Positions 11,087 to 30,301 of a stretch of 38,710 nt of DNA are shown here, one piece after another (the stretch's first letter is position 1; each line of letters starts with the position of its first letter). The notes beneath the pieces were generated by a model. That model was not told the origin of the DNA and ran no database searches. It saw only the letters and a list, made by a program, of their open reading frames with translations. Origin of the DNA: a virus. Location of the stretch: positions 1 to 38,710 of the IMG/VR virus record IMGVR_UViG_3300003885_000017; one strand, written 5' to 3'. Position numbers and translations under genes: made by a program.

Positions 11087-11310
11087 TCAGCGACTGGACG
11101 AAGCGAACATGGGAGAAGCTCCAGAACATGGGCTCCAACGAGCAGGCTTGGGAGATCCTTGAGAAAGCTGGAGCTGAGCTTGTGACCAGTGTCATCGAGC
11201 CGATTCAAGGCAGGCGCTTTAGGAACGAGGAGGCTCAAGGTGTTCCTGAGCGAGAGGCCGGCCCAGCTCCTAGCGAGAGCGGGCGTCGTTCATCGAGGGG
11301 GGTGGAGTGA
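11083..11310 (+). CDS. Small hypothetical protein, TTG start
   Basis: 75 aa. The TTG at 11083 overlaps the previous stop (TTGA) and follows GGGGAGA, so a TTG start fits better than any ATG. Helical N-terminus (DWTKRTWEKLQNMGS, EQAWEILEKAGAELV), charged disordered C-terminus. Function unknown. Overlaps the methyltransferase start (GTGA). Confidence 0.68.
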   Translation: MISDWTKRTWEKLQNMGSNEQAWEILEKAGAELVTSVIEPIQGRRFRNEEAQGVPEREAGPAPSESGRRSSRGVE

Positions 11311-12392
11311 TTGAAGTCCTCGACCTCTTCTCCGGCATCGGCGGTTTCAGTCTCGGGCTCGAAAGCACCGGAGGCTTCCGCACCATCGGGTTCTGCGAAA
11401 TCGAGCCCTTCCCTCGAGAAGTCCTCCGAAAGCATTGGCCCGGAGTTCCCATCTGGGAAGACATCCGAGAGCTCACAGCCGAGTCTCTGGGGGGATTGCA
11501 ACCCGACGCTATTGTCGGAGGATTCCCCTGCCAAGACATCAGCGTCGCCGGTAAAGGCGCAGGGCTCGACGGTGCGCGCTCCGGGCTTTGGTCCGAGTTC
11601 GCCCGGCTTGTGGTCGAGCTTAGACCCCGTTGGGTCATCGTTGAGAACGTCGGTGCTCTCAGAACTCGAGGGGTTGACCGGGTTTGCTCTGACCTGGAGG
11701 CCCAAGGCTACTCCGTCTGGCCGCTTCTGGTGGGTGCTTGGGCGGTCGGAGCCCCGCACAAACGGGACCGAGTCTGGATCGTGGCCCACCGCGACGGCGA
11801 AGGACGAAGCGAGCAGCGGAGCGGCAGCCTACTCGACGGAGAGCGGGCAGCATCCGGGCACGACCCTGACCGACGCGGCGAACGGCCTGTGGGCGACGGC
11901 CAGCGCAACGGACTACAAGGGCAGCGTTCAGGGCGAGACGTTGGAGGGTCGTCGCGGAATGGCTCGGGGAGTAAGGCTCCCCGAGCAGATCGCCAGGTTT
12001 GGCCCGCCCGCCCTGGAGAAGCGCAGTACGAGTGGGAAGAGCCCCGATTGGCCTACGCTGGACGTGGGAGCGGTGACGGGCGGCAGATCAGCGCGGGGCC
12101 AGAGCAAGCCGGGGCGTCAGTCAACGCTCGCGGCAACGGGGCAGAGGGGGACGCTCAACTCCCGGTGGGTGGCGCAGCTCATGGGCTACCCGAGCGACTG
12201 GCTCGACGTTGGAACCGAGAGGCTCTCAAAGCTCTGGGCAACAGCGTGGTCCCGCAAGTCGTCGCGACCATCGGGCGGGCGATCTTGAGCGTGGAGAACT
12301 GTGTGGAAGCAGGGAGTGCCGGTCCCCTGTCTGAAGCGAGGTCCGAATTAGAGAGCGGGCCTCGCAGCCGGCGTCGTGGAGGGAAGCCTTGA
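11307..12392 (+). CDS. DNA cytosine-C5 methyltransferase
   Basis: 361 aa, GTG start. All core motifs of C5-cytosine methylases are present: I DLFSGIGGFSLGLE (6-19), IV GGFPCQDIS (71-79, catalytic C75), VI VIVENVGALR (110-119), VIII APHKRDRVWIVAH (149-161), and X NREALKALGNSVVPQVVA near the C-terminus. Between VIII and X lies a very Gly/Arg/Ser-rich target-recognition region of about 150 residues. The enzyme probably methylates phage DNA against host restriction; no partner nuclease is adjacent. The same DNA also reads as a second recognisable protein (11512-12288) in another frame, which would explain the odd composition of the recognition region. Confidence 0.92.
   Translation: MIEVLDLFSGIGGFSLGLESTGGFRTIGFCEIEPFPREVLRKHWPGVPIWEDIRELTAESLGGLQPDAIVGGFPCQDISVAGKGAGLDGARSGLWSEFARLVVELRPRWVIVENVGALRTRGVDRVCSDLEAQGYSVWPLLVGAWAVGAPHKRDRVWIVAHRDGEGRSEQRSGSLLDGERAASGHDPDRRGERPVGDGQRNGLQGQRSGRDVGGSSRNGSGSKAPRADRQVWPARPGEAQYEWEEPRLAYAGRGSGDGRQISAGPEQAGASVNARGNGAEGDAQLPVGGAAHGLPERLARRWNREALKALGNSVVPQVVATIGRAILSVENCVEAGSAGPLSEARSELESGPRSRRRGGKP
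11512..12288 (+). CDS. Overlapping-frame protein of the WPT(A/P)-repeat family inside the methyltransferase gene
   Basis: 258 aa if TTG 11512 is the start; the frame is open from 11311. Its pattern is one I recognise from phages and prophages near or over C5 methylase genes: EDSPAKTSAS, then SLRTSVLS, LTWRPKATPSGRFW, PRTNGTESGSWPTATAKDE, a second LWATASATDYKG, LPEQIARFG, and a C-terminal LNSRWVAQLMGYPSDWLDV. It lies completely within the methyltransferase gene. No ATG and only a poor ribosome-binding site (GGGGGGA about 15 bases upstream) are visible, so translation could be by TTG start, coupling or frameshift. It could also be a conserved shadow of the methylase motifs. Function unknown. 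Confidence 0.5.
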   Translation: MSEDSPAKTSASPVKAQGSTVRAPGFGPSSPGLWSSLDPVGSSLRTSVLSELEGLTGFALTWRPKATPSGRFWWVLGRSEPRTNGTESGSWPTATAKDEASSGAAAYSTESGQHPGTTLTDAANGLWATASATDYKGSVQGETLEGRRGMARGVRLPEQIARFGPPALEKRSTSGKSPDWPTLDVGAVTGGRSARGQSKPGRQSTLAATGQRGTLNSRWVAQLMGYPSDWLDVGTERLSKLWATAWSRKSSRPSGGRS

Positions 12393-17007: not shown

Positions 17008-18081
17008 ATGGGAAAGCGTGAGATGAAGAGGCGGTTGGCGGCAGAGCAGGGTGGCGAGTGCGCTCTCACGGGAGAGTCGTTGGCGACGGACCAGTCCCTG
17101 AACGATACGGACAGGGAGCTCCCGAAGGTGGAGGGCGGCATCTACACCGACGAGAACACCAGGGTCGTTGAGCCGGTTGCTCACCAGAAGCGGCACGGTC
17201 ACTACCGGCCCCGTGACCCGGAGTTTGAGTCCCTGAAGACGCTCTTCGATGATCGAGCGCAGACGATGAAGCTGGCGCTGAAGATTGGCAACCAACTGAA
17301 GGCCTACGATCGCCGGGTGGATCACAAGGAGCCGGAGGTGGAGGCCTTTCTCCAGGAGACGCTGGTCCCGGTGGAAAAGCGCCTGGGCAAGATCACTCGA
17401 GTCATCGAGAAGGCGGTCAAGGCGATGGACGATCCGCTCATCAACGCGGCCTTCAAGGTGTTGGGCCTTGGCCCGGTCACGATCGGAGCCCTGACGGTCT
17501 ACGTCGACCTCGAGCGGCGCGCGTGCCTGTTGTGCAAGCGGGACATCTATCGCTGCGAGGCGATCCGTGCGATGCCAGCCAAGGACAGGCGGAAGGACGA
17601 GAAGGTCTGCGCCGGCAATGGGGAGACCATCGACGGGTGCTCTTCCCCCTCAGCTCTCTGGGCCTACGTCGGACTCGACAAGCCCTCCTATGAGCGGCAC
17701 GTCAAGGGCAAGGAGGGTGGGGGGAACAAGACCCTCAGGACCATCCTCTGGAACGCTGCGAACGTGATGATGAAGCTCCGGGTGAGCGGCTACCGGCCGA
17801 TCTACGATCGGATCAAGGGCAGGCTCGAGATCTCCGAGAAGATCGTCGTCTCGCGCAACACCCAGGGCAACAAGGTCGAGGTCGCGTGGAAGGACACCAA
17901 GCCTTCTCACCGCCACGGCGCGGCGCTTCGGGTGGTGATGAAACACATCTTGGTGGACTACTGGCTCGTTGGGCGTGAGCTCAAGGGTCTGCCGACCCGG
18001 ACGATTTACGCCGAGGCGATGCTGGGCCACACCCATATTGAAACGCCCGCAGATCACGGCTGGCCGGCCATCAACAAGTAG
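17008..18081 (+). CDS. tasH: TasH-like RNA-guided nuclease (HNH-like N-terminus, Nop/IS110-type C-terminus)
   Basis: 357 aa from ATG 17008, placed 8 bases after GGAGAGAGG; an upstream GTG would contain that site. Residues 18-65 resemble an HNH/His-Me-finger fold: ECALTG, TDRELPKVEGGIYTDENTRV, AHQKRHGHYR (N50, H59, H63); the first HNH histidine is replaced by D35-R36. Residues 75-140 are helical. From 148 the sequence matches the C-terminal domain of IS110-family transposases: helix-hairpin-helix VLGLGPVTIGALTVYV, ALWAYVGLDK, GGGNKTLRTILWNAANVM, RHGAALRVVMKHILVDYW. A Cys cluster (C173, C176, C183, C201, C211) is inserted. There is no RuvC DEDD domain and there are no transposon ends. This domain is shared by Tas proteins, which bind guide RNAs from TIGR arrays; such an array starts 17 bases downstream. 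Cleavage activity is inferred. Confidence 0.85.
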   Translation: MGKREMKRRLAAEQGGECALTGESLATDQSLNDTDRELPKVEGGIYTDENTRVVEPVAHQKRHGHYRPRDPEFESLKTLFDDRAQTMKLALKIGNQLKAYDRRVDHKEPEVEAFLQETLVPVEKRLGKITRVIEKAVKAMDDPLINAAFKVLGLGPVTIGALTVYVDLERRACLLCKRDIYRCEAIRAMPAKDRRKDEKVCAGNGETIDGCSSPSALWAYVGLDKPSYERHVKGKEGGGNKTLRTILWNAANVMMKLRVSGYRPIYDRIKGRLEISEKIVVSRNTQGNKVEVAWKDTKPSHRHGAALRVVMKHILVDYWLVGRELKGLPTRTIYAEAMLGHTHIETPADHGWPAINK

Positions 18082-18097
18082 AAGCTCAAGCACCGCT

Positions 18098-18757
18098 AGC
18101 GAGTCAAAGGAACAAAGAGCACCAGATGCGTCGAGCGAGCCAAGATTGACCAGAGTCCTAAAAGACAGGAGCGAGCTAAAAAAGGGAAGAGCCTCAACCA
18201 CTCGAAGCGAGTCAATAGCGAGAAAAGTCTCGTTGCCGAGAAGCGAGTCACGGTCGGTGAGAACCCCAGTCCAGTCAAGCGAGCCAGCGTCACGGAGAGT
18301 CTCAATCCCAGGTAGCGAGCCAAGAGTGAGAAGAGTCCTCAAAGGCGGAAAGCGAGCCAAAGGCCGGAAGAGTCCCAAGTCCAGCCAAGCGAGCCACCAA
18401 TGCCGAGAACTCCACGCGACGTGAGCGAGTCACCGAAGCTAAGTGTCCCAAAAACTGAGAGCGAGCCAGTGAGTATGAGAGTCTCAGTGATCGCGAGCGA
18501 GTCAACCACGACAAGAGCCCCCATCGCCCGCAAGCGAGCCACACTGAAGCAGCGTCCCATCGCTTGGAAGCGAGTCATTTCGGTTAAGAACTCCTTCAAG
18601 GCAAAACGAGCCACAAGGCTGCAGAATCCCAGCGCGGTCCAGCGAGTCAACTGCTACAAGAGCCCCAGCGGCCTCAAGCGAGCCACCCGAAGCGAGAACC
18701 CCATTGCCTGCCAGCGAGTCAGACACCCAGAGAGTCCCATGACCTCGTAGCGTGGTA
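18098..18757 (+). repeat. TIGR array: 18 dual-spacer units of 36-37 nt plus terminal repeat
   Basis: AGCGAGYCA starts at 18098, 18134, 18170, 18206, 18242, 18278, 18314, 18351, 18388, 18424, 18460, 18496, 18533, 18569, 18605 (AACGAGCCA), 18641, 18677 and 18713, and in degenerate form (AGCGTGGTA) at 18749. Between them each unit has 9 variable nt, a second conserved block (consensus AGAGYCCC; variants AGAACCCC, AGAGTCTC, AGAACTCC) and 10 variable nt. Three units (7, 8, 12) are 37 nt by one extra base in the second spacer. No two spacers look alike. The 36-nt unit with two repeat types and two about 9-10-nt spacers is the layout reported for TIGR arrays, which are processed to 36-nt guide RNAs. 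The array lies downstream of the tas-like gene on the same strand, so both are probably co-transcribed. The three 37-nt units break any reading frame through the array. Confidence 0.93.
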
Positions 18758-18784: not shown

Positions 18785-19378
18785 ATGCCTGCCAAGAGAC
18801 CCCGCCCAAAGAAGCCCACCGCCCGAAAGGGTAAAGCCCCAAAGAAGGGGCTCCTTCCCTCTCATGACCGGTTCGTCCGCGAGTACCTTGTCGATCTGAA
18901 CGGGCAGAGAGCCGCAGAGAGGGCCGGGTTCGCCCCCAGGACGGCACGGATCACGGCCTCGAAGCTTCTAACATTGCCTAACGTGAAGGTAGCGGTGGAG
19001 GCCGGCAAGGCCAAACGTGCGGCCAAGACCGACATCACTCAGGAGAAGGTGCTGGGGGAGCTCACCATCCTGGCCCACTCGAACGTGGACGACTACGCGA
19101 TGGATGAGAGCGGTCGCCTGGTGCCTGCTGAGGGTCGGGGCCCGGAGGTCATGCGGGCGGTGAGCTCGGTCAAGTACCGGACCAGGACCGTCGGAGCTGG
19201 CGAGAGCGCCCAGGTCGTCCGCGAGGTCGAGTTCAGGCTCTGGGACAAGCCGGGCACCCTGAAGCTCGAGGGTCGGCATGTCGGTCTCTTCCCGAACGAG
19301 GTGAAGCTCAGTGCCGGGCAGGAGACTCTCGCGGAGATCCTGAAGATGGCCCATGAGCTCAACTCCGCTCAGGGTTAG
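18785..19378 (+). CDS. terS: Terminase small subunit
   Basis: 197 aa. A Lys/Pro-rich N-terminal tail (PAKRPRPKKPTARKGKAPKK) precedes a Terminase_2-type domain: HDRFVREYLVDLNGQRAAER, AGFAPRTARITASKLLTLPN, VKVAVEAGKAKRAAKTDI, then VLGELTILAHSNVDDY. This part binds the packaging site by helix-turn-helix. The C-terminal half has the beta segments seen in longer members (EVEFRLWDKPGTLKLEGRHV). It recognises phage DNA and recruits the large subunit, whose gene overlaps by 26 bases. First gene of the late/virion region, directly after the TIGR array. Confidence 0.9.
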   Translation: MPAKRPRPKKPTARKGKAPKKGLLPSHDRFVREYLVDLNGQRAAERAGFAPRTARITASKLLTLPNVKVAVEAGKAKRAAKTDITQEKVLGELTILAHSNVDDYAMDESGRLVPAEGRGPEVMRAVSSVKYRTRTVGAGESAQVVREVEFRLWDKPGTLKLEGRHVGLFPNEVKLSAGQETLAEILKMAHELNSAQG

Positions 19379-20927
19379 CCCGGCGGCCAGAGCTCTCCAA
19401 GGCTTGGTCAAAGCCTGGAGATCGGATCCTGTCGGTTGCGTCGAGCAGTCCTTCGGGTCAGATCCCTGGGGCAACCCTGTCCATGTCGATCCTGCCCAGC
19501 GGGAGATCCTCGAAGCCGTCAGGGACAACGACGCCACGGTGGTCAGGACGGGCCGTGGCGTGGGGAAGACGGCTTCGGCTGCCATGCTCACTCACTGGTG
19601 GCTGGCCGCCTTCTGGCCTGCCCTGGTGGTGACCTCGGCCGGATCCTGGGCCCACCTCACGGACAAGCTCTGGCCTGAGATCAGGGCCTGGGGCAAGAAG
19701 TGGAAGTTCCGCGACGCCTTCGAGTACCAGCAGCTGGGGGTGTACAGCAATGCCGACCCTGAGATCTGGAAGGCGGTCGGCGTCTCGAGCGACAAGCCGG
19801 TGAACGTCGAGGGGTTCCACAACCCGAACTTCTTGTTGCTCATCGATGAGGCCAAGGGTATGCCCGACGAGATCTTCGCGGCGCTCCTGGCCTCGCTCTC
19901 AGGCGATGAGAAGTCGGGATCCCAGAAGGTCGTGGCGCTCTCGACGCCGCCGGCAGCTGATGCCGGCTGGTACGCCAAGGCTTGCTCGAGCGATCGATGG
20001 CACACGGTCCACGTCTCCGGTCTCGACAGTCCTCGCGTCTCGAAGGAGTACGTCGAGGACATTGCGGACACGTTTGGGGAGCAGAGCGCTGAGTACCAGG
20101 CCTACGTCCTGGGCAACATCCCTGAGGGGATCACCGGCCAACTGATCCGGGCGTCCTGGGTGAAGAAGGCCCAGACGTGGAAGAAGAAGGACCGACGCTA
20201 CCCGGTTGTGACGTGCGACGTGGCTCGGGGTGGTGAAGACCTCTGCGTGATCGGAGTCATCGAGCATGGGCTCTTCAACCTGGCCTTCGATGAGGATCGC
20301 GGGAAGTGGAGCTGGTGGGCCACGTCGGATCTCATGGAGGTGGTCAAGAACATTGGTCGAGCGGTGCTGAAGCACAAGGCTCGGGCGGTCTGCGTCGATG
20401 ACACTGGGCTCGGTGGTGGTGTCACCGACAGGTTGCGCGAGCTCCAGAGCGAGGGAGGCTTCCCGGCCAACTGCACGATCTGGCCGGTCAACTTCGGTGC
20501 GGCCCCCAGGAGGCCTGATCGGTTCTTCCTCCGCAAGGACGAGATCTGGTGGAGTGCGCGCGAGGCTCTTCGTGCTGACAAGATCGGCCTTCCCACCGAT
20601 GAGACGATTCAGTCGTGGCGTCTTCCTCGAGGCTCAGACTTCAAGGCGCAGCTGCTGGCGGTCATCTTCGAGAGCGACATGCGCGAGCGGGTTCGGGTCT
20701 TCGACAAGCGAGTGACGGGCAAGGAGGTCACGAAGGCGCTGCCTATCAAGAGTCCTGACTTGGCACACGCTCTCATTTTGGGGATAGACTATTACCAGAG
20801 GCAGGAGGAGCTTCCGGTGCCGACTGAGCCGCCCAAGACGCAGGAGGAGGCCCTTGCGAGGGTCTTGCAGCAGAGCGTTGCGGATCTCATGAAGACTAAG
20901 GTCGCTCGCACCCCATTCCAGAGGTGA
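19353..20927 (+). CDS. terL: Terminase large subunit
   Basis: 524 aa. ATPase: Walker A RTGRGVGKT (65-73), Walker B LLLIDEAKG (161-169), coupling motif VVALSTPP. Nuclease: TCDVARGGED (287-296, D289), CVDDTGLGGG (347-356) and the late acidic SPDLAHALILG. This is the motor that pumps DNA through the portal and cuts concatemers. Length and motif spacing are normal. Start ATG 19353 overlaps the small-subunit gene, so the two are coupled. Confidence 0.96.
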   Translation: MSSTPLRVSPAARALQGLVKAWRSDPVGCVEQSFGSDPWGNPVHVDPAQREILEAVRDNDATVVRTGRGVGKTASAAMLTHWWLAAFWPALVVTSAGSWAHLTDKLWPEIRAWGKKWKFRDAFEYQQLGVYSNADPEIWKAVGVSSDKPVNVEGFHNPNFLLLIDEAKGMPDEIFAALLASLSGDEKSGSQKVVALSTPPAADAGWYAKACSSDRWHTVHVSGLDSPRVSKEYVEDIADTFGEQSAEYQAYVLGNIPEGITGQLIRASWVKKAQTWKKKDRRYPVVTCDVARGGEDLCVIGVIEHGLFNLAFDEDRGKWSWWATSDLMEVVKNIGRAVLKHKARAVCVDDTGLGGGVTDRLRELQSEGGFPANCTIWPVNFGAAPRRPDRFFLRKDEIWWSAREALRADKIGLPTDETIQSWRLPRGSDFKAQLLAVIFESDMRERVRVFDKRVTGKEVTKALPIKSPDLAHALILGIDYYQRQEELPVPTEPPKTQEEALARVLQQSVADLMKTKVARTPFQR

Positions 20928-20931
20928 CCGT

Positions 20932-21183
20932 GTGAAACCAGAGCAGTTGGTTCAGGCGCAGTTCGACGCGGCCAGGGTCGAATGGGGCAAGGAGAAGGCG
21001 GTCTTTCAGGCGGAGATCCTCTCGTTGACAGAGAGGGTGGTCGGCAAGGCCATCAAGGCCACGCTGCCCGTGCTGAGGAAGGCCACGGAGGTGGTGAAGG
21101 CTGTGGCCCCTGCCCCTTCGCCGGATCCGTCAAAGTCCAAGGCTGCGAAGAAGACGGCGAAGAAGGCCCCGAGAAAGCGATGA
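20932..21183 (+). CDS. Small Lys/Ala-rich protein
   Basis: 83 aa, GTG start with GAGGTGA upstream. A helix (PEQLVQAQFDAARVEWGKEK) leads to a Pro/Lys-rich basic tail (SKSKAAKKTAKKAPRKR). The tail resembles histone H1-like DNA-binding ends. Between terL and portal, so possibly linked to packaging. Not recognised. Confidence 0.7.
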   Translation: MKPEQLVQAQFDAARVEWGKEKAVFQAEILSLTERVVGKAIKATLPVLRKATEVVKAVAPAPSPDPSKSKAAKKTAKKAPRKR

Positions 21184-21365
21184 AGCATCTGCCGCTCAAG
21201 GAGATGCGTTTCTGGTCGCAGTGGATCGATGCTGCCAAAAGGAGAGGCACTTCCCTGAAGGACATCGAGGGCATGGTTCAGATGTTCTTGGATCAGGAGT
21301 ACAAGCACTTTCCCTACGGCAGCACGACTCGTTCGTGCGTCCTCGCCACGGCGTGGGGGTTCTGA
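21180..21365 (+). CDS. Small hypothetical protein
   Basis: 61 aa, ATG overlapping the previous stop (ATGA). KHLPLKEMRFWSQWIDAAKR, GTSLKDIEGMVQMFLDQEYK. Mostly helical, no motif. Coupled to the following tiny membrane gene by TGATG. Confidence 0.68.
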   Translation: MKHLPLKEMRFWSQWIDAAKRRGTSLKDIEGMVQMFLDQEYKHFPYGSTTRSCVLATAWGF

Positions 21366-21457
21366 TGGGCAAGGCTGCGACTGACAAGGAGATCACCTGG
21401 ATGGTGCTGGGGGCGTGCGTTGCAACGATCGCCCTTCTTCTTCTGGCGGGGCTCTGA
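21365..21457 (+). CDS. Tiny single-pass membrane protein
   Basis: 30 aa: MGKAATDKEITWMVLGACVA followed by TIALLLLAGL. One membrane segment occupies most of it. Overlaps both neighbours by TGATG. Could be a pinholin-size or accessory membrane peptide; support is coupling only. Confidence 0.55.
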   Translation: MGKAATDKEITWMVLGACVATIALLLLAGL

Positions 21458-21726
21458 TGGGACTTTTCAGTAGCGGCGAAGACCCCAGGGACACGCTGAT
21501 CTCCACCCTGTTGAGCGAGCGCGACTACCTTCGGGCCAAGGTGGATGAGCTTCAGAAGGAGCTCCTGGCGATGACCTCCTCGAGTGCGTATCGGCTGGTG
21601 CATCGTGACCAGGCCGAGCCTGAGCCAGTCGAACCGGTTCTCAGTCCGATGCAGCTCCGAGACGCAGATCCTGTGAAGCCTGAGCAGACTGCGGACGAGA
21701 TCAAGGCTTCGTGGGGTGATTCGTGA
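21457..21726 (+). CDS. Small hypothetical protein upstream of portal
   Basis: 89 aa, ATG 21457. FSSGEDPRDTLISTLLSERD then YLRAKVDELQKELLAM (coiled-coil-like), and a Pro/Glu-rich tail with SPMQLRDADP. Not recognised. Overlaps the portal start (GTGA). Confidence 0.72.
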   Translation: MGLFSSGEDPRDTLISTLLSERDYLRAKVDELQKELLAMTSSSAYRLVHRDQAEPEPVEPVLSPMQLRDADPVKPEQTADEIKASWGDS

Positions 21727-24485
21727 GTACCTCGATCGCAACGTTCGGCGGTCGTCAGACTGACGGCCTGAAGCCTCCAGGGCAGGAGAAGGACGAGACG
21801 AAGCTGGTCGAGTACGTCAAGCAGAGGGCGTATCGATCGAGTCCTCTCTACGCCGAGGATTTCTCGGTGGCCCGCAAGGCAGAGCTCTACGATCAGAACG
21901 AGCAGTGGCTGCGTCGGGCTCACACCACCCGCGACTCGAGGTATCCCACGCAGTGGGTGCGGATCGATACGAACACGAACGATCCGAACTCGATCCCCCT
22001 GCCGGTCTACAACGAGATGGTGCGGCTCAGGGAGAACGAGAGCGCCCGTCTGGGCCGGCCCGAGTACAAGCCGAAGGTCAACCCGAAGGGCGAGAACCCC
22101 GGCATCACTGAGAAGGAAGGCGCGAAGGGCGCGGAGCGAGCCTTGCAGAGCCGGATGAAGGCGATGCCCTGGGACCAGGTGCAGGAGCAGCTGGTCTATA
22201 ACATGCCGTTGTACGGCGGAGCCTGGGTCGAGAGTCGTTGGGAACAGACTTGGATGGACACCATCCGGGTGCCGGCGAAGTCGGTCGCCTGCTCGAGGAA
22301 CCCTGCGGCTCAGCAGCAACCCGGTGAGCAGGGCACCATCAAGGGGATCGATCCCAAGGAGCCGATTCCTCCGCATCAGGCCCCACCGACTGCTCAGCCG
22401 GTGGAGCCTGGGCAGGCCCAGGTCGGCGCGGATGCTCCGAACATGCCGCCGTCCACAGGGGCCCTCGACGCCGGCCTTCCAGGTCCGGACAGCAGTGGCG
22501 GCATCGAGCAGGCGATGATGCAGGCCGGCGGTGGCGTGCCGGGCATGGGCCAGGAGTCGATGGGGATGGCCGGCATCATGCCGCAGGGTCAGCCTCCTTG
22601 CCCCTACGTTGACACCGAGGAGAACGCGAAGAAGTCGGGTGCGTTCCAGGACGGGACGTGTCCTCTCTGTGGCTCTCCGACCGTTCCGTACCAGCCCACG
22701 CAGCAGGAGGCGATCGGCCCACTCGGGAAGGACTGGCCGAAGGGCGACTGGATAGTCAGCATCGTTTGGCCCTACGGCGTCTTCCCCAGGGACGCCGGCA
22801 TCGGCGTGGATCGCTCCGACGTGGACGAGTGGGTGAAGGTCGAGATCAAGACCATCGATTGGGTGGCTGAGCGATACCCCGACAAGGTTCGAGATCTGGA
22901 GACGGGAGACCTGAAGATCTATCCGCAGCATCCGACGACGCTCATGGTCGAGAACCCCACCTTCGGTGCTCCGGTTGTCTTCCAGGCGGGGCAGCATACG
23001 GGTGCGTTCAAGAACCACGTCCTCGTCTACGAGTACAACCGGAAGCCCTGGCTGGAGTGGAACCACGAACTCAAGAAGTACACACGGAACCGTGGACGCC
23101 ACACCGTCGTGGTGCAGGATCGCGTGTGTGTCGATTCGGACTACGAGATCGAGAGCATCAACCAGCCTGGTCGTTGGATCCCTCGGGTGCGATTGGAGTT
23201 CATCCACTGGGAGCCGATGGAGGGCGGTCGGCGCTCGACGGTCGGGCAGAGTCTTTGGGGGCGTCTCTTCGACGCGCAGGACGGCATCAACGAGCGCATG
23301 GCCCAGATTCGCGCGGTCAACCAGCGCGGGGCCTTGCCCTGGTACATCCAGGCTCGAGGGCGCAACTTCGAGACGCGAACAGCGGACGCGGCCATACCGT
23401 TTCGCCGAGTGCTGTGTGACATCGACCCGACGGACAAGAATCCTCCGCTCACGCTCATGCAGAACACCACGATCGACTCCGGAGTGTACGCGGAGCTCGA
23501 GGTGGGGCGTGACTTCGCTCAGCGGGTGTCCGGCCAAGTCGAGGTGGAGCGAGGGCAGGTTCCTCCGGGTGTGGCAGCTGCGACCGCGATCGCGTACCTG
23601 AAGACCGAGTCGGGCGAGACGCGCCGGCCTCGCATCTTGCGGATCCGGGCTGGCCTGGTGCGAGCCTGGCAGCACGGTGTCGACCTCATGGCTGGGCTCT
23701 ACATCGAGCCTCGCGAGTACTCCTACGAGGACGAGTTCTCGGAGGAGCGGTGGGCGTTCATCCACGGCGAGATCATTGCTTCGTCCAAGCCGAAGGTGGA
23801 CATCTACCCGACTCCCGACTACGACGAGACGGATCGTCAGCGCGAGTCGATCAGGGACATGGTGCAGCTCGGGATCCTCAACCCGACCCAGACGCCACAG
23901 ATCAACCGGAAGATCGTGAAGACGCTCGATGCAACGCTCGACTTCTTCGTGGACGACGACTACCAGGAGGAGCAGGCGCAGCGAGAGTGGCGCGACTTCA
24001 AGGACTACGGTCGAGTGCCGGTCATCGATCCGTCGCTGGACGATCCGATGACGCACTTCCAGGAGCACGGTCGAGAGTGCTTCGGGGCATGGTTCCGTGG
24101 CGAGGAGTCCAACGCCGGCTGGGACGAGGTTCTCGGGTTCCTCGGAGCGGACTGGGACGACGCCCTGACGCAACTGTCCTGGGCTCGCCCGCCGGGGACA
24201 TCGCTCCAGAACCTGGTGCTGAACTTCTGGCAGCTACGGATCCAGACGGCGATGCAGTCGGGGATGTACCGGGGTCCGCAGGATCCCAAGGCTCTCCAGA
24301 ACGTGCTGCAGTGGCGAGCTCACATGGAGTCGCACAAGCTGCTCTTCCTGCTCCAGGCCGCGAAGCAGCAGGCTCCTCCCACCGCTCCGGGTCAGGGCTC
24401 GAGCCCTGATGCTGTGTCGGAGGAGGGTGGCGGTGCGCCGGCTGACGGTGGTGCTATGCCGCTGGGCGCGGGGGCTCCGGTATGA
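21723..24485 (+). CDS. Portal protein (P22-like)
   Basis: 920 aa, GTG start, longer than the P22 portal (725 aa). N-terminal: KAELYDQNEQWLRRAHTTRD, WVRIDTNTNDPNS, YNEMVRLRENESARLGRPEY, LQSRMKAMPWDQVQEQLVYN, MPLYGGAWV. A Pro/Gly-rich insert (about 205-295) ends in a CPLCG pair. Then WPYGVFPRDAGIGVDRSDVD, LWGRLFDAQDGINERMAQIR, the helix GVAAATAIAYLKTESGETRR and a clip/barrel-like C-terminus. It forms the dodecameric ring for DNA passage and tail attachment. The C-terminal tail is Gly/Ala-rich. Family assignment from residue pattern and gene order. Confidence 0.88.
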   Translation: MSTSIATFGGRQTDGLKPPGQEKDETKLVEYVKQRAYRSSPLYAEDFSVARKAELYDQNEQWLRRAHTTRDSRYPTQWVRIDTNTNDPNSIPLPVYNEMVRLRENESARLGRPEYKPKVNPKGENPGITEKEGAKGAERALQSRMKAMPWDQVQEQLVYNMPLYGGAWVESRWEQTWMDTIRVPAKSVACSRNPAAQQQPGEQGTIKGIDPKEPIPPHQAPPTAQPVEPGQAQVGADAPNMPPSTGALDAGLPGPDSSGGIEQAMMQAGGGVPGMGQESMGMAGIMPQGQPPCPYVDTEENAKKSGAFQDGTCPLCGSPTVPYQPTQQEAIGPLGKDWPKGDWIVSIVWPYGVFPRDAGIGVDRSDVDEWVKVEIKTIDWVAERYPDKVRDLETGDLKIYPQHPTTLMVENPTFGAPVVFQAGQHTGAFKNHVLVYEYNRKPWLEWNHELKKYTRNRGRHTVVVQDRVCVDSDYEIESINQPGRWIPRVRLEFIHWEPMEGGRRSTVGQSLWGRLFDAQDGINERMAQIRAVNQRGALPWYIQARGRNFETRTADAAIPFRRVLCDIDPTDKNPPLTLMQNTTIDSGVYAELEVGRDFAQRVSGQVEVERGQVPPGVAAATAIAYLKTESGETRRPRILRIRAGLVRAWQHGVDLMAGLYIEPREYSYEDEFSEERWAFIHGEIIASSKPKVDIYPTPDYDETDRQRESIRDMVQLGILNPTQTPQINRKIVKTLDATLDFFVDDDYQEEQAQREWRDFKDYGRVPVIDPSLDDPMTHFQEHGRECFGAWFRGEESNAGWDEVLGFLGADWDDALTQLSWARPPGTSLQNLVLNFWQLRIQTAMQSGMYRGPQDPKALQNVLQWRAHMESHKLLFLLQAAKQQAPPTAPGQGSSPDAVSEEGGGAPADGGAMPLGAGAPV

Positions 24486-24796
24486 GCGCCCAGGCCCATG
24501 GAAGGATGTGCGAGCACAACACAGTGGGGTTCTGCCCCCAGTGTGCGGAGTGGATGATGGCTCCGAACCCCATCCCCTTAGCGGGCCCGAGGGTCGTGTT
24601 CCACGGTCCGCAGTTCAGCCCAGGGTTCGAGATCAGCACGCCGACGCCGGTCCAGAAGGGCTGGCTCTGCCCTCGATGCGAGACAGTGAACGCGCCGTGG
24701 ATGCCGAAGTGCGACTGCAAGGAGGCGACGAGTGGCGGCGACCTCAACAAGCAACTTCAGCGGCAGTCTGACGCCGACGTTCTCGAGGGGAAGTAG
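24482..24796 (+). CDS. Zinc-ribbon protein
   Basis: 104 aa. Two Cys/His groups: CEHNTVGFCPQC (10-21) and CPRCETVNAPWMPKCDC near the end, with PRVVFHGPQFSPGFEISTP between. Two zinc sites are likely. Such proteins beside portal genes may be minor virion or assembly factors. The last 65 bases overlap the next gene in another frame. Confidence 0.76.
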   Translation: MSAQAHGRMCEHNTVGFCPQCAEWMMAPNPIPLAGPRVVFHGPQFSPGFEISTPTPVQKGWLCPRCETVNAPWMPKCDCKEATSGGDLNKQLQRQSDADVLEGK

Positions 24797-24989
24797 GGTG
24801 CCCTATGCTCCTGCGTTCGAGCGGGCCCTCAGGGGTCGAGCTCACGGCTGGAGTCCGAGGAAGGGAAGCATCGCCAGGATTTCCCCGACGAAGGCGAAGC
24901 GGATGCTGGGCGAAGCTGATCGCACCAGGCAAGCGAAGCACCGTGGTCAGTCGCGAGCGTTGCGCCGGATGAGTGGGGCGAATGGATGA
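24732..24989 (+). CDS. Small basic protein sharing the coat-protein N-terminal peptide
   Basis: 85 aa, GTG start 6 bases after GGAGG. Residues 1-19 (MAATSTSNFSGSLTPTFSR) match the first 19 residues of the coat protein (MAATSTSNFAGLLVETFSR) at 15 positions, with AP-x-FER soon after in both. Codons differ, so the match is kept at protein level. The rest is basic: RGRAHGWSPRKGSIARI, RTRQAKHRGQSRALRR. It may be a capsid-targeted internal or minor head protein. Confidence 0.68.
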   Translation: MAATSTSNFSGSLTPTFSRGSRVPYAPAFERALRGRAHGWSPRKGSIARISPTKAKRMLGEADRTRQAKHRGQSRALRRMSGANG

Positions 24990-25489
24990 TCCTCGGCAAC
25001 ACGTTCTTGTACCTCGAGCCGAAGGGTATTGTCCCCGCGAAGGACCATGCCCAGTGTCGCGGGTGCATGATGTGGACCGGTCCGGAGCACGAAACCTGCA
25101 CGGCCCACGATCCGAAGACTCAGGGGAAGTTTGTGGGAGACGGATCCTGCGGCGGGTACGCCGAAGGTCATCCGATGCCGAAGATGGCCGGCAAAGAGAT
25201 GGGCTCCTGGACGAAGGAGGAGTCTGGCTACGTCGTCCGCGAGGTGCGTTGCGAGAACTGCAAGCACTTCGAGAAGAAGGACGACCACTGTCACTTCTTC
25301 ATGATGCTGAACAAGCTCAACGGATTCGATATCAGGGAGAAGGTCAAGCCCAAGGCGTGCTGCAATGCCCAGGAGACGGGCACGCGCGACCCGAAGGTGG
25401 CGACTCCGAAGGCCGTGAAGGAGCCTCAGCCACCGATGGCTGCTCGGCGTCGAGGTCAAAAGCAGGCCGCAAAGGCCTTGGGAGGGTAG
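24986..25489 (+). CDS. Cys-rich virion-region protein
   Basis: 167 aa. Two Cys groups: CRGCMMWTGPEHETC, later GSCGGY; and CENCKHFEKKDDHC, later ACCN. The first resembles the Cys/Trp spacing of high-potential iron-sulfur-like folds (C-x2-C-x-W-n-C-n-G-x-C), but zinc binding is equally possible. The tail is Lys/Ala-rich. Function unknown; located between portal and scaffold. Confidence 0.72.
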   Translation: MILGNTFLYLEPKGIVPAKDHAQCRGCMMWTGPEHETCTAHDPKTQGKFVGDGSCGGYAEGHPMPKMAGKEMGSWTKEESGYVVREVRCENCKHFEKKDDHCHFFMMLNKLNGFDIREKVKPKACCNAQETGTRDPKVATPKAVKEPQPPMAARRRGQKQAAKALGG

Positions 25490-25490
25490 T

Positions 25491-25760
25491 ATGGCGATGC
25501 ATGAGGCGAAGCACCGAGGTCGGAAGCGAGCTGCGGCTAAGGTCAAGATCGAGACAGAGGTCGAGGGTGTCGGTGGCCCTTCGATGGGCAACTGGAAGGC
25601 TGAGCAGAAGAAGCGTCTCATCGGACACATCGCAGCTCTCGAGAAGGAGCTCAAGGGTTTCGATCCGCAGGCTGCGGCCGAGAAGGTGCGATCGAGTCTG
25701 GACTTGGAGCTTCGGCGCAAGAAGCTTGATCTCGAGCGGAACGCGCTCGAGGATCTGTAG
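25491..25760 (+). CDS. Small charged helical protein
   Basis: 89 aa, GGGAGGG before ATG 25491. HEAKHRGRKRAAAKVKIETE, then long helices KAEQKKRLIGHIAALEKELK and LDLELRRKKLDLERNALEDL. Coiled-coil character; no known family. Confidence 0.73.
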   Translation: MAMHEAKHRGRKRAAAKVKIETEVEGVGGPSMGNWKAEQKKRLIGHIAALEKELKGFDPQAAAEKVRSSLDLELRRKKLDLERNALEDL

Positions 25761-25771
25761 GAGAAAGAGCG

Positions 25772-26194
25772 ATGGCTGACGACTTCAGGACCATAGGAAC
25801 GGGCAGGGCGGGCGAGGTCAAGTCCGTGACTGGCTCCGAGGCCGGCAAGACGGCGAAGTACGATCGGATGGCCGCCAGGACTGAGGAGCAGCGGTTCAAG
25901 CAAGCCCAGGGCGTCGGCGGTCTCGGCAATGCGGGCAAGGCCTCCGGGTCGGCGTTCCAGCAGCGGCTCAAGGCGCACATGAAGAAGTGGCGTGCTGCGC
26001 GCAAGAAGGCCGCAGCGGCGAAGGCCGCGAAGAAGTCGGGACAGAAGTCGGCGGCGAGCAAGCTGCCGAAACCGACTGCTGCCCTCGGTGCGAAGAACAT
26101 GGGCAGCCAGGCAGCGGGTACGCGGGTTCCTCATCCGGTGCGGACCGGAGCGGAAGCGGCGGCTCTCAATCAACGAGCGGGCGAGGTCAACTAG
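25772..26194 (+). CDS. Basic Ala/Lys-rich protein
   Basis: 140 aa. RTIGTGRAGEVKSVTGSEAG, then RLKAHMKKWRAARKKAAAAK and KSGQKSAASKLPKPTAALG. Histone-like composition in the middle. Could be a DNA-binding internal protein of the head; not recognised by family. Confidence 0.73.
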   Translation: MADDFRTIGTGRAGEVKSVTGSEAGKTAKYDRMAARTEEQRFKQAQGVGGLGNAGKASGSAFQQRLKAHMKKWRAARKKAAAAKAAKKSGQKSAASKLPKPTAALGAKNMGSQAAGTRVPHPVRTGAEAAALNQRAGEVN

Positions 26195-26234
26195 GAACCC
26201 TCTAAGAACCTAGAACATACCGGAGGACAGGAAC

Positions 26235-27050
26235 ATGCCAGGACAGACAGGTAGCACCATCAATCGTCACATCGCAGACGGTGGGGTCGGGGCTCGCAAG
26301 AAGAGCACCTCTCGGCGCGACCTCGTCTACCAGTACGAGTCGTGTCAGCAAAACGTCCCGATCCTGAACGCCCTCAACTCGGGGTTCCCGACTGGGGCGA
26401 CCGGCACCACGGGGCGGGTCATGTTCCCTGGCGGTGGGGTCTTGATGACCTACGCGGGTGCGGGGCAGACGTTGCTCGGTCCGACCCTCGACGTGGCCCA
26501 GGGGGCGCTCGATGTGGCCCTCGACGGTGTGGACAACGAGGGCGTGGACTACGTCTTCTCCGACGGCTACGGAGCGGGCGCTCGGCACACCAACGTCATC
26601 GGGACCAGCGCGGCGATGTTCTTCAAGATCAGCGTCACCATCGAGGACGTGAGCGGGGTGGACCAGGTGCTGTGTGGCTGGCGCAAGGCCGAGGCCTCGC
26701 AGGCCGACTTCAACGACTTCGATGAGATGGCGGCGTTCAACATCATCTCGGGCGACGTGTTCGTGGACACCATCCTGAACGGTGGAGCCACGGGGTCGGT
26801 GGACTCGGGGCTCAACTGGGCCGACGGGGAGACGAAGGTGTTCACGACCATCGTCAACGAGGTCGGTCCTCCCACGGGGACGCAGCGGTTCCTGCTCGAC
26901 GGCGACAACGTCGGCGTGAATCCGTTCGTCTGGGACGCAGCCGAGGTCATCGTCCCGTTCTTCTACCCGCTTCAGGATGCGGACATCAGCCGGGTCTGGT
27001 GGAACTGGTTCGAGATCGGAGAGATCCGCAACGTCGAACGAGCCGTCTAG
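26235..27050 (+). CDS. Virion structural protein (beta-rich)
   Basis: 271 aa, GGAGGACAGG before ATG 26235. Beta-rich, Gly/Asp/Val-rich sequence (GTTGRVMFPGGGVLMTYAG, TNVIGTSAAMFFKISVTIED, VFVDTILNGGATGSVDSG, WWNWFEIGEIRNVE). It resembles the beta-sandwich domains of decoration or fibre proteins, but the family is not recognised. Position before the scaffold and coat genes supports a head role. Confidence 0.72.
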   Translation: MPGQTGSTINRHIADGGVGARKKSTSRRDLVYQYESCQQNVPILNALNSGFPTGATGTTGRVMFPGGGVLMTYAGAGQTLLGPTLDVAQGALDVALDGVDNEGVDYVFSDGYGAGARHTNVIGTSAAMFFKISVTIEDVSGVDQVLCGWRKAEASQADFNDFDEMAAFNIISGDVFVDTILNGGATGSVDSGLNWADGETKVFTTIVNEVGPPTGTQRFLLDGDNVGVNPFVWDAAEVIVPFFYPLQDADISRVWWNWFEIGEIRNVERAV

Positions 27051-27060
27051 GGAGTGACTC

Positions 27061-27390
27061 ATGAAAATGGCTGGACCTCCAGGAGCCAGGTACAAGGCTC
27101 ACTGGAGTCAGACATCGAAGGGAGAGGAGGCGCAGATGCCAGGAAGGATGGGCGGTTACGGCCGCAGGAGCGGTCGCAGGCGTGGAGGCGGTGTAGTCGC
27201 GCCTGGTGGTCGTGGTGGTCGAAGGGCTATGGGCGGCAGAGGAGAGGTCAGCAGCCACAATCGTCCGGCGCGAAGAGGTGGTGTCGTTGCCACCGATGCT
27301 TCGGTTGCTAGCCCGAGAGTCGCTGGAAGGCGTCGCGCTCGAGGACGTGGTCAGCGTCGCGCCGCACGAAGGATGCGTGGCCGGCTCTAG
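27061..27390 (+). CDS. Arg/Gly-rich basic protein
   Basis: 109 aa from ATG 27061; ATG 27136, preceded by GGAGAGGAGG, is an equally good start (84 aa). The body is protamine-like: GRMGGYGRRSGRRRGGGVV, RRAMGGRGEV, SPRVAGRRRARGRGQRRAAR. Strong DNA or RNA binding is expected. Possibly packed with the genome. Confidence 0.64.
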   Translation: MKMAGPPGARYKAHWSQTSKGEEAQMPGRMGGYGRRSGRRRGGGVVAPGGRGGRRAMGGRGEVSSHNRPARRGGVVATDASVASPRVAGRRRARGRGQRRAARRMRGRL

Positions 27391-27595
27391 CTCATTTCGC
27401 AGTCCTTTTCCGTCGGTGTCGGTCACAGCATCGTCACCGCCGGAGAGGTCGCCACTCGAGCCTGTGTCGAAGTACGGTAGACGCAAGCGGAAGTGGAGGA
27501 CCGATAACGCCAAGTGGGCCGGGCAGAGGCGAGCGGTGAGGAAGTTGTCACCTCCGAAGCCGACGCCGATTCCGAAACGCTTGGACGAGAAGTAG
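27377..27595 (+). CDS. Small basic protein upstream of scaffold
   Basis: 72 aa, GTG start overlapping the previous gene by 14 bases. Ser/Pro-rich N-terminus, then KYGRRKRKWRTDNAKWAGQR and RKLSPPKPTPIPKRLDEK. Not recognised; may continue the basic-protein cluster. Confidence 0.58.
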   Translation: MAGSSSFRSPFPSVSVTASSPPERSPLEPVSKYGRRKRKWRTDNAKWAGQRRAVRKLSPPKPTPIPKRLDEK

Positions 27596-27624
27596 GATCA
27601 GGAGCCCCCTGAAAGAGAGAGATC

Positions 27625-28974
27625 ATGACTGACACGAATCACACTCCGTCGTCGGGTCTGGCTGAGGCAACGTCTGCCTTGTCGGCCGCGATGTCCGGAA
27701 ATCCTCCAGCGAGCCCCGCTGGAGCTCCAACGCCGGCACCGTTGCCGCCGGCTGCACCTCCATCTGCGCCGGAACCACAGCCTGCGCCGGCACCGCCGCC
27801 GGCAGCTCCTGAGCCCGAACCCGCGCCTGTCGTCGCGTTTCCGCCGGAACCCCCGGCCGCGACTCCGGCACCTGGCAGCACACCATCCCCTGCGCCTGCT
27901 CTTCCGGTTCCCCCGGATGAGCCGGCAGGGGTCCAAGACCCGCAAGCACGACGCTACCTCGAGATGCATGGAGGCGATGTCGATGCGGCCCTGGCAAAGG
28001 CCCTGAAGGACAACAACCGGCTGGCTGAGCTCTATCGGGTGAATCCCGACGCCTTCCAGTCCGGAGGTCCGGCAGATCCTTCCCAGCTACCGCCTGACGA
28101 CCCTTCTCTTTTCCAGGAACCGGATGCTCTTCCGCCTGAGTTCGATCAGGCCGAGATCGATCCGGCTGCAGTGCAGGCTGCCGTGAACGAGCGGGTGTAC
28201 GCGGACCCCAATGCCTATGGTCTCATCCAGGCCTACATGGCGAACAAGGTTCAACTCGAAGGGAATGCCCAGACGGGACAGCAAGGGCTCGTCCACAAGA
28301 TCCAGGAACTCGACAATCAGGTCGTCTACGAGACGCAGAAGATCGCGGATCCTGACCTGGCTGGAGACGAACTGAGGACCGGTGAGAGCGAGCAGAAGCT
28401 ACTCCGGATGCAGACCCAGTTGGGACTGCTCAAGCAAGAGCAGTCTCGAATCCTCCTCGAGAATCGCGACTGGGACAATCAGTTCCGGGCGTACCGAGCG
28501 AACGTCGAGGCGGATGTGATGGGCCAGTTCGATGAGCAGGCTGAAGACGAGGCCTACACCAACTACGAGCAACAGGTCGAGGACGACGAAGAGCGGAGAG
28601 TTCTCGCTGAGTGGCCGGGTGCCCTTCAGCGAGTCATCCAGGAGCACAACATCCCCCCCCAGCAGATCGAGGACTTCTCGAACGACGCGGTGAGGGCGTA
28701 CCAGGCGGCGCTCAACGACGACGAAACAGTCATTGACGACCTGTACGTTTTTCTCCAGCAAGTCGGGAGAGATCAGGCCGCACGTCTCGACCGCTACCAT
28801 CGGATCCGTGCTGGACAGTACGGGACCGATGCGGCGGCTCGAGCAGCGACACCCTCGCCTCCGACGGGGCCGCCCGGAGCCGCGCCTCCTCCTGAAGCAC
28901 AGTCGCCGTCTCCCGAGGAAGCAATGGCCTCTGCCACTCACTACTTGAGGCAGAGGATGCGTCCTGGAGGGTAG
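27625..28974 (+). CDS. Scaffolding protein
   Basis: 449 aa. Residues 24-105 are a Pro/Ala-rich disordered segment (PAPLPPAAPPSAPEPQPAPA); then YLEMHGGDVDAALAKALKDN, an acidic Pro region, and long helices (LVHKIQELDNQVVYETQKI, LLRMQTQLGLLKQEQSRILL, NVEADVMGQFDEQAEDEAY). The end (THYLRQRMRPGG) is basic and would contact the coat. Acidic, helical, directly upstream of the coat gene: the classic scaffold position and composition. Identified by context, not by sequence family. Confidence 0.8.
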   Translation: MTDTNHTPSSGLAEATSALSAAMSGNPPASPAGAPTPAPLPPAAPPSAPEPQPAPAPPPAAPEPEPAPVVAFPPEPPAATPAPGSTPSPAPALPVPPDEPAGVQDPQARRYLEMHGGDVDAALAKALKDNNRLAELYRVNPDAFQSGGPADPSQLPPDDPSLFQEPDALPPEFDQAEIDPAAVQAAVNERVYADPNAYGLIQAYMANKVQLEGNAQTGQQGLVHKIQELDNQVVYETQKIADPDLAGDELRTGESEQKLLRMQTQLGLLKQEQSRILLENRDWDNQFRAYRANVEADVMGQFDEQAEDEAYTNYEQQVEDDEERRVLAEWPGALQRVIQEHNIPPQQIEDFSNDAVRAYQAALNDDETVIDDLYVFLQQVGRDQAARLDRYHRIRAGQYGTDAAARAATPSPPTGPPGAAPPPEAQSPSPEEAMASATHYLRQRMRPGG

Positions 28975-28990
28975 ACGCAGAGGAAGGTAA

Positions 28991-30301
28991 ATGGCTGCAA
29001 CAAGCACTAGCAATTTCGCGGGGCTCCTGGTCGAGACGTTCTCTCGCGACCGGGTGTTCGCTCCGTTCGAGCGATCGCTCGCGAAGTTCCATTCGGGAAC
29101 GCAGGATTGGGAAGACGAACCGCCGCTCGGTCGTGGCCGGACGTTTGGGATCCGCACAAAGGATGCCCACTCGACCGGTACGGTTTCCGAGGCTAGCGGG
29201 TCCACTCCCACCCTGCGACAGCCGGAAATCCTCCAGGCGAACGTCGATGCGATTCAGTGCGTCGGCGTGGCTGGTTGGACCGAACTGATGATGTCGGCAG
29301 GCCGGGGGCTCGGAAGCCTCGGTCCCGACGTGATCAGCGACCACATCGAGATGACCACCCGCAACGTGATGCAGCTGCTCAACCGCATGAGCCTGGGCCA
29401 CGGCACGGCGCGTATCGCTGCTGTCCAGGACACCACGGTGGCGAGCACCACGTTCATCGCTCGGAACCCCGAGCACGTTCTTCAGTTGCGCGACAACATG
29501 ACGCTCGACTTCTACAATCTGGACACCGGAGGCGCGAAGCAGGGCGCAACCGAGACCATCCAGGAGATCGACTTCGAGACGCGCACCGTGACGATCGGCA
29601 ACGCGCGGTCGCTGAACGCTGGCTGGGGAGTCTACCAGGCTCTCACGTCCGCGATCTCGACCTACGGCATCGCACCGTTCGGACTCCGTGCCTGGGCCGA
29701 CAACGGCGAGCTCACCTCGAGCATCGGCGGGATCACCAGGTCGGGGAACCCCGGCGTGAATGCCAACGTGCTGACGACCGCGACCGGCACCCAGCCGTAC
29801 TCCGAGAAGCTCATGCGGAAGGGCATCAACCGCATCTTCTTCGCGTGTGGCATGGAGCCGGACGAGGCGTGGACGAACAAGGGGATCATCTCCGAGCACC
29901 TCAACCACCTGGTCGGTGACCGTCGATTCACCCTCAACCCCGGCGAGAACGTTCCGAAGTACCGGATCGGCTACCGGGAAGAGGAGATCGGTTTCCAAAC
30001 GGGGGGCAGCTTCATCCCCTTCAAGTGTGAGGGTGACTTCGTGGACCGCGAGCTCATCTTCATCCGGAAGCCGATGTTCCGTCGGCATCAGCTCCGGGCC
30101 GTCAACTGGATCGGAGACGATTCCGGTGTGGACGGCACGGCTCGGGCAGTGCTGCTCCAGCTTCCCGCCAGTGGCGGAGGCTACGAGCTTTCCAAGATCG
30201 CGATCCTGCTCGGCATGACGAACTACGGCAACCGTATGCCGAAGTCGATCTGCCGGATCAGCAACATCGCGGACGAGGAGCTCGCGGGCGACACCGTCTA
30301 A
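28991..30301 (+). CDS. Major capsid (coat) protein
   Basis: 436 aa, strong GAGGAAGG before ATG 28991. Gene order (portal, scaffold, coat) and the sequence identify it: N-terminal arm MAATSTSNFAGLLVETFSR, a strand-helix region GWTELMMSAGRGLGSLGPDV, spine-like helix HIEMTTRNVMQLLNRMSLG, a beta-rich insert, and C-terminal GNRMPKSICRISNIAD. Compatible with an HK97-fold coat protein related in length to P22 gp5 (430 aa). The first 19 residues recur in the small gene at 24732-24989. A strong hairpin follows. Confidence 0.87.
   Translation: MAATSTSNFAGLLVETFSRDRVFAPFERSLAKFHSGTQDWEDEPPLGRGRTFGIRTKDAHSTGTVSEASGSTPTLRQPEILQANVDAIQCVGVAGWTELMMSAGRGLGSLGPDVISDHIEMTTRNVMQLLNRMSLGHGTARIAAVQDTTVASTTFIARNPEHVLQLRDNMTLDFYNLDTGGAKQGATETIQEIDFETRTVTIGNARSLNAGWGVYQALTSAISTYGIAPFGLRAWADNGELTSSIGGITRSGNPGVNANVLTTATGTQPYSEKLMRKGINRIFFACGMEPDEAWTNKGIISEHLNHLVGDRRFTLNPGENVPKYRIGYREEEIGFQTGGSFIPFKCEGDFVDRELIFIRKPMFRRHQLRAVNWIGDDSGVDGTARAVLLQLPASGGGYELSKIAILLGMTNYGNRMPKSICRISNIADEELAGDTV

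Follow-up and report, generated by a model that had tools for sequence, protein, structure and literature searches.

A phage-borne TIGR-TasH locus with an 18-unit dual-spacer array and a predicted RNA-guided nuclease

The IMG/VR virus record IMGVR_UViG_3300003885_000017, analysed whole as a single complete record of 38,710 bases and referred to here as the window, carries a gene for a protein with an HNH nuclease domain and a Nop/IS110-type RNA-binding domain, with an array of 18 short dual-spacer units directly behind it. Sequence, fold, array anatomy and the arrays present at 27 homologous loci confirm the locus as a bona fide member of the TIGR-TasH group, and thereby give strong support to the phage-encoded TIGR-Tas identity put forward in the original prediction; the unit is real, but of an already known kind of RNA-guided system. 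The TIGR-Tas family was first described in 2025, and its discovery paper characterised one TasH member only. From the sequence, the modelled structure and analogy with relatives, we consider it highly probable (roughly 93%) that this is a complete TIGR-TasH system on a tailed phage, whose guides would direct TasH to cut DNA.

The tasH gene (17008-18081, on the + strand, as are all features of the locus given below) encodes a 357-residue predicted RNA-guided endonuclease, and its open reading frame appears genuine, with an ATG at 17008 and the purine-rich sequence AGGAGAGAGG upstream. The protein is 48% identical to SpTasH, the HNH and Nop protein of Salicola phage CGphi29 (PDB 9w04, 9vzx and 21kl); tblastn gives 47.7% identity over 99% to the CGphi29 TasH, and phmmer matches the solved SpTasH with an E-value of 2.5e-102 and TaTasR with one of 1.2e-7. 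The NCBIfam model TIGR_Tas_endo (NF052498) is matched at E 1.5e-23 with 83.9 bits, which is under its curated cut-off of 100. An AlphaFold model built from 24 family members (mean predicted local distance difference test score, pLDDT, 87; predicted template modelling score 0.81) aligns best with the TasH-tigRNA-dsDNA complex 9w04 (Z 29.6 over 309 residues), then with TasR 9mty (Z 18.6) and then with the IS110-family recombinase IS621 (8wt6, Z 15.9), so that sequence and predicted fold agree on the HNH-like N-terminus and IS110/Nop-type C-terminus originally proposed.

The HNH domain occupies residues 1-66 (17008-17205) by family alignment and structure match. Residues 7-66 align with SpTasH, and the N-terminal 60 residues align with the HNH domains of T4 EndoVII and Cas9 (Z 7.8-8.7). 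Across 25 homologues D33, R36, G44 and N50 show no variation at all, and H59 and H63 show almost none. Coiled-coil helices follow at residues 71-139 (17218-17424) in the AlphaFold secondary structure and correspond, when aligned with TasH and TasR structures, to the dimerisation region of TasR and Nop proteins, and the C-terminal RNA-binding domain (17644-18078) carries the conserved WKDTKPSHRHGAALR block and is specifically Tas-related by both phmmer and fold Z-score. Unlike SpTasH, the window protein carries a Cys-rich insertion (CLLC...C...C...C; 17515-17643), roughly 41 residues long, placed after VDLE. It is the sole carrier among the 25 homologues, and the insertion, which is possibly a zinc site, is modelled with low confidence (pLDDT under 50 at residues 172-184 and 197-210).

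The array begins 16 bases beyond the tasH stop codon and runs from 18098 to 18748, as delimited by repeat reading, lag identity and column information. Its 18 units start at 18098, 18134, 18170, 18206, 18242, 18278, 18314, 18351, 18388, 18424, 18460, 18496, 18533, 18569, 18605, 18641, 18677 and 18713, with 15 of them 36 nt long and three (units 7, 8 and 12) 37 nt. Each unit consists of an edge repeat AGCGAGYCA, a 9-nt spacer A, a loop repeat close to AGAGYCYCA and a 9-nt spacer B, an arrangement that fits the alternation of two 8-12-nt repeats with two spacers of about 9 nt expected of TIGR-TasH arrays. The original prediction thus stands as regards 18 units of 36-37 nt with two conserved blocks, and as regards a first spacer of 9 nt; its second spacer of 10-11 nt does not stand, since the loop reads best as a 9-nt AGAGYCYCA and leaves 9 nt there too. 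When the array is compared with itself at lag 36, identity reaches 0.51, compared with 0.22-0.29 at the remaining lags from 30 to 42, and over 36-nt columns the edge and loop hold 1.0-2.0 bits of information as opposed to 0.07-0.48 bits in the spacers. The edge motif AGCGAGYCA with at most one mismatch occurs 45 times in the window (mean of 100 shuffles 27.6, maximum 40), and 18 of these occurrences are the evenly spaced array copies. Edge and loop have AG...CA ends in common, both in the window and over 26 loci, which agrees with the box D/box C ends described for this family, where a symmetric protein dimer would recognise the two repeats alike (PMC12045711).

TIGR arrays as a rule open and finish with truncated edges. 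At its 3' end the present array closes with a truncated edge repeat, AGCG (18749-18752), just ahead of the terminase genes. At its 5' end lies a degenerate first half unit (18080-18097), made up of the loop-like AGAAGCTCA (18080-18088) and 9 further nucleotides; because it shares bases with the stop codon of tasH, a 19th guide may start within the 3' end of the gene. In eight other loci (L007, L008, L009, L010, L014, L016, L020 and L028) the tas stop codon likewise abuts or overlaps the first box C, with junctions reading TAGCCA, TAACCA, TAATCA or TGAACCA, and the half unit of the window (18079-18088) is therefore an instance of a recurrent layout.

A search with the core alignment recovered 27 further homologues, all on viral contigs, and a 36-nt array adjoins the gene in 27 of the 27, with an edge that is mostly AGCGAGYCA or AGTGAAYCA. 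Two pattern scans of GTDB genomes and a search of plasmids recovered no TasH, an absence that holds at those sensitivities only. The nearest relative in the tree (L008, IMGVR_UViG_3300020195_000103; 58% identity, support 100/98) similarly has a long array behind its gene, beginning at the stop codon, although it lacks the Cys-rich insertion and has one of its own, about 29 residues long, at another loop. The CGphi29 locus is also alike, with a 36-nt period, an array straight behind the gene and a nearly identical edge (AAGCGAGYCA). The CGphi29 array differs in having 8-nt rather than 9-nt spacers, a loop that reads AAGACAACCA rather than AGAGYCYCA, and about 10 units as against 18. The two loci also occupy different positions in their phage genomes, and beyond the tasH locus the phages have no gene, DNA or protein in common, even though their edge repeats are almost identical. 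More broadly, when gene neighbourhoods were compared, tasH and open reading frames antisense to it were the only features common to all loci, which suggests that no accessory gene is needed. With only the gene and the array shared across loci, TasH and its array therefore pass between unrelated phages as a self-contained module.

The way in which the system would act can be outlined from SpTasH and TaTasR, whose characterisation provides the basis for transcription, mid-edge processing and guided double-strand cleavage at this locus (PMC12045711). Co-transcription of tasH and array is plausible, as they lie on the same strand with a 16-bp gap and no consensus promoter or terminator in between, and probably yields one transcript. 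This would be cut at the middle of every edge repeat, releasing some 18 guide RNAs, each 36-37 nt long. A TasH dimer would take up a single guide by recognising the AG...CA termini (box D/box C) that edge and loop have in common. Base pairing of spacer A would then engage one strand of the DNA, that of spacer B would engage the adjacent stretch of the opposite strand, and the two HNH domains would cut both strands; the target DNA would accordingly read spacer A, 0-2 bases, and the reverse complement of spacer B. Since no guide matches the phage's own genome, the most likely role is an attack on DNA belonging to other elements that share its cell, the identity of those elements being a guess.

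Targets of that form were sought in three sets of sequence. In the window itself the best spacer-pair score was 15/18, equal to that of mispaired controls, with means of 13.89 for true pairs and 13.87 for mispaired ones. Among 307 spacer pairs compared with 1.06 Mb of TasH phages there was no exact match; matches at 16/18 numbered 59 (57 mispaired) and those at 17/18 numbered 6 (1 mispaired), a slight excess that falls mostly in unrelated phages and on which we place no interpretation. Exact scans of 2.9 million IMG/VR viral contigs returned 5 matches for guide 9, 3 for guide 18 and 6 for guide 8, the last collapsing to 3 distinct phages; these counts are close to the 4 of a mispaired control and are attributed to chance. 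A guide 18 match in an apparent portal gene (L085) was dropped, a control match also lying in a portal-like gene (L088); both portal labels were assigned by eye from the translations. We note that positions 2514-2549 of another contig (L084, IMGVR_UViG_3300033148_010184) hold an exact 18/18 match to guide 18 with a 1-base gap and, directly adjacent, a 16/18 match to guide 8, both within one open reading frame resembling a tail protein. By a post hoc estimate such a pairing has a chance of about 1%, and the guide 8 scan of viral contigs gave it no backing. The suggestion that the guides are aimed at competing phages, plasmids or host loci is thus unsupported rather than refuted.

Several points weigh against a working, DNA-cutting system. 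Searches of the phage itself and of TasH phages yielded no natural target, and those of viral contigs yielded none above chance. A consensus scan of the + strand found no rho-independent terminator after the array, whereas the CGphi29 array has one, and no consensus promoter was found before the window array; a terminator in that position is typical of TIGR-TasH loci but does not define them. Characterised TasR blocked plasmid maintenance in E. coli, but not phage infection or conjugation (PMC12045711). Finally, the Cys-rich insertion could change or abolish activity. This last point leads to the alternative that survives best, namely that the locus binds DNA without cutting it, or serves as a regulator or replication block, its cleavage having been inactivated by the insertion or by changes in the HNH domain. 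The insertion is unique and the model there uncertain, the protein reads DTDR where many homologues have DTHR, and the family includes nuclease-free TasA forms (PMC12045711). Against this, the D-x-D-R form is shared with CGphi29 TasH, which does cleave, and every other conserved HNH position is retained in the window protein; we regard a non-cutting locus as unlikely, and retain guided cleavage by TasH as the preferred interpretation.

The other explanations fare considerably worse. Open reading frames can be traced across the array, as would be expected of a functionless low-complexity or coding repeat beside a domesticated Tas-like transposase, but the retention of a 36-nt array beside every further homologue, together with spacers that are random-like where the repeats are conserved, makes this very improbable. 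A reading as an RNA-guided transposase of the IS110 type, working with a bridge RNA, would fit the shared Nop-type C-terminal fold, and PHROGs names the nearest families of the window protein transposase. IS110 and IS621, however, combine a DEDD recombinase with one two-loop bridge RNA in place of an array, whereas the window has an adjoining 18-unit array, an HNH N-terminus in which no DEDD/RuvC-like recombinase domain was found, and only 15.3 bits to the IS110 NCBIfam model (cut-off 140); the closer match to TasH rules this candidate out at close to certainty. Phages do carry mini-CRISPR arrays, with similarly regular repeats and variable spacers, but that explanation is dismissed with the same near-certainty by the anatomy of the array, which has in each 36-nt unit two different 9-nt repeats and two 9-nt spacers and no single direct repeat of 25-36 nt, by the Tas-type gene that adjoins it, and by the lack of any Rfam match or of a PADLOC match for the window protein. 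Within the TIGR-Tas family itself, the TIGR-TasR system of a Thermoproteota archaeon (PDB 9mty) has the same Nop fold, dual-spacer 36-nt arrays and box C/D ends, but differs from the TIGR-TasH locus described here in its RuvC nuclease in place of HNH and in its repeat sequences (PMC12045711).

The homologous loci also show how such arrays change. In a comparison of 308 units from 26 loci, identical 8-nt half-spacers were found in 13 of 1943 unit pairs within arrays, as against 1 of 45,095 pairs between loci, and identical or near-identical units or half-units occur in the arrays of L008, L010, L013, L019, L023 and L025. Three related units recur in the same order in the L008 array, and units 8-10 of L023 (counted from 1) contain a 36-nt duplication shifted by half a unit. 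Two near-identical phages (L020 and L021) have about half of their units in common and in order, with the others replaced, and some units keep one spacer while the other has changed. The window array has a single weak trace of this kind, in that units 5 and 8 have B spacers that differ at one base. These observations fit growth of TasH-clade arrays by block duplication inside the array followed by mutation; acquisition of foreign sequence could still account for units without signs of duplication. A more speculative view, which we hold only tentatively and think rather doubtful, is that TasH-clade arrays are not acquired memories at all but are built through unequal recombination between blocks of a whole or half unit, together with spacer mutation, and would thus form a guide-diversifying cassette and not a record of encounters.

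Judged by its genes, the window is a tailed-phage genome or a large part of one, with small and large terminase subunits, portal and major head protein spanning 18785-30301 and recombination genes at the left end. The tasH gene is flanked by a block of small genes on one side and the terminase genes on the other, and its predicted placement between early and packaging genes is borne out by the small and large terminase subunits that come straight after the array; the small subunit (18785-19378, + strand; Pfam Terminase_2, E 3.3e-21) is a neighbour that lies outside the TIGR-TasH system. A search by terminase found no close relatives of the phage. A C5-cytosine DNA methylase gene is present at 11307-12392 (Pfam E 5.9e-43; a restriction partner was not searched for), and the CGphi29 annotation likewise includes a DNA methylase. 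A GC-rich tandem repeat (GGCTTCGGCGGCGGC-like) lies at the right end of the contig (38640-38707).

Two questions raised by the discovery paper are touched by these results. As to what the arrays target, the sequence examined rules out self-targeting in these phages; as to how the arrays expand, the block duplication directly visible within TasH-clade arrays bears on that process. The locus also adds a well-formed phage TasH to a family in which that paper characterised one, and its Cys-rich insertion supplies a structural variant.
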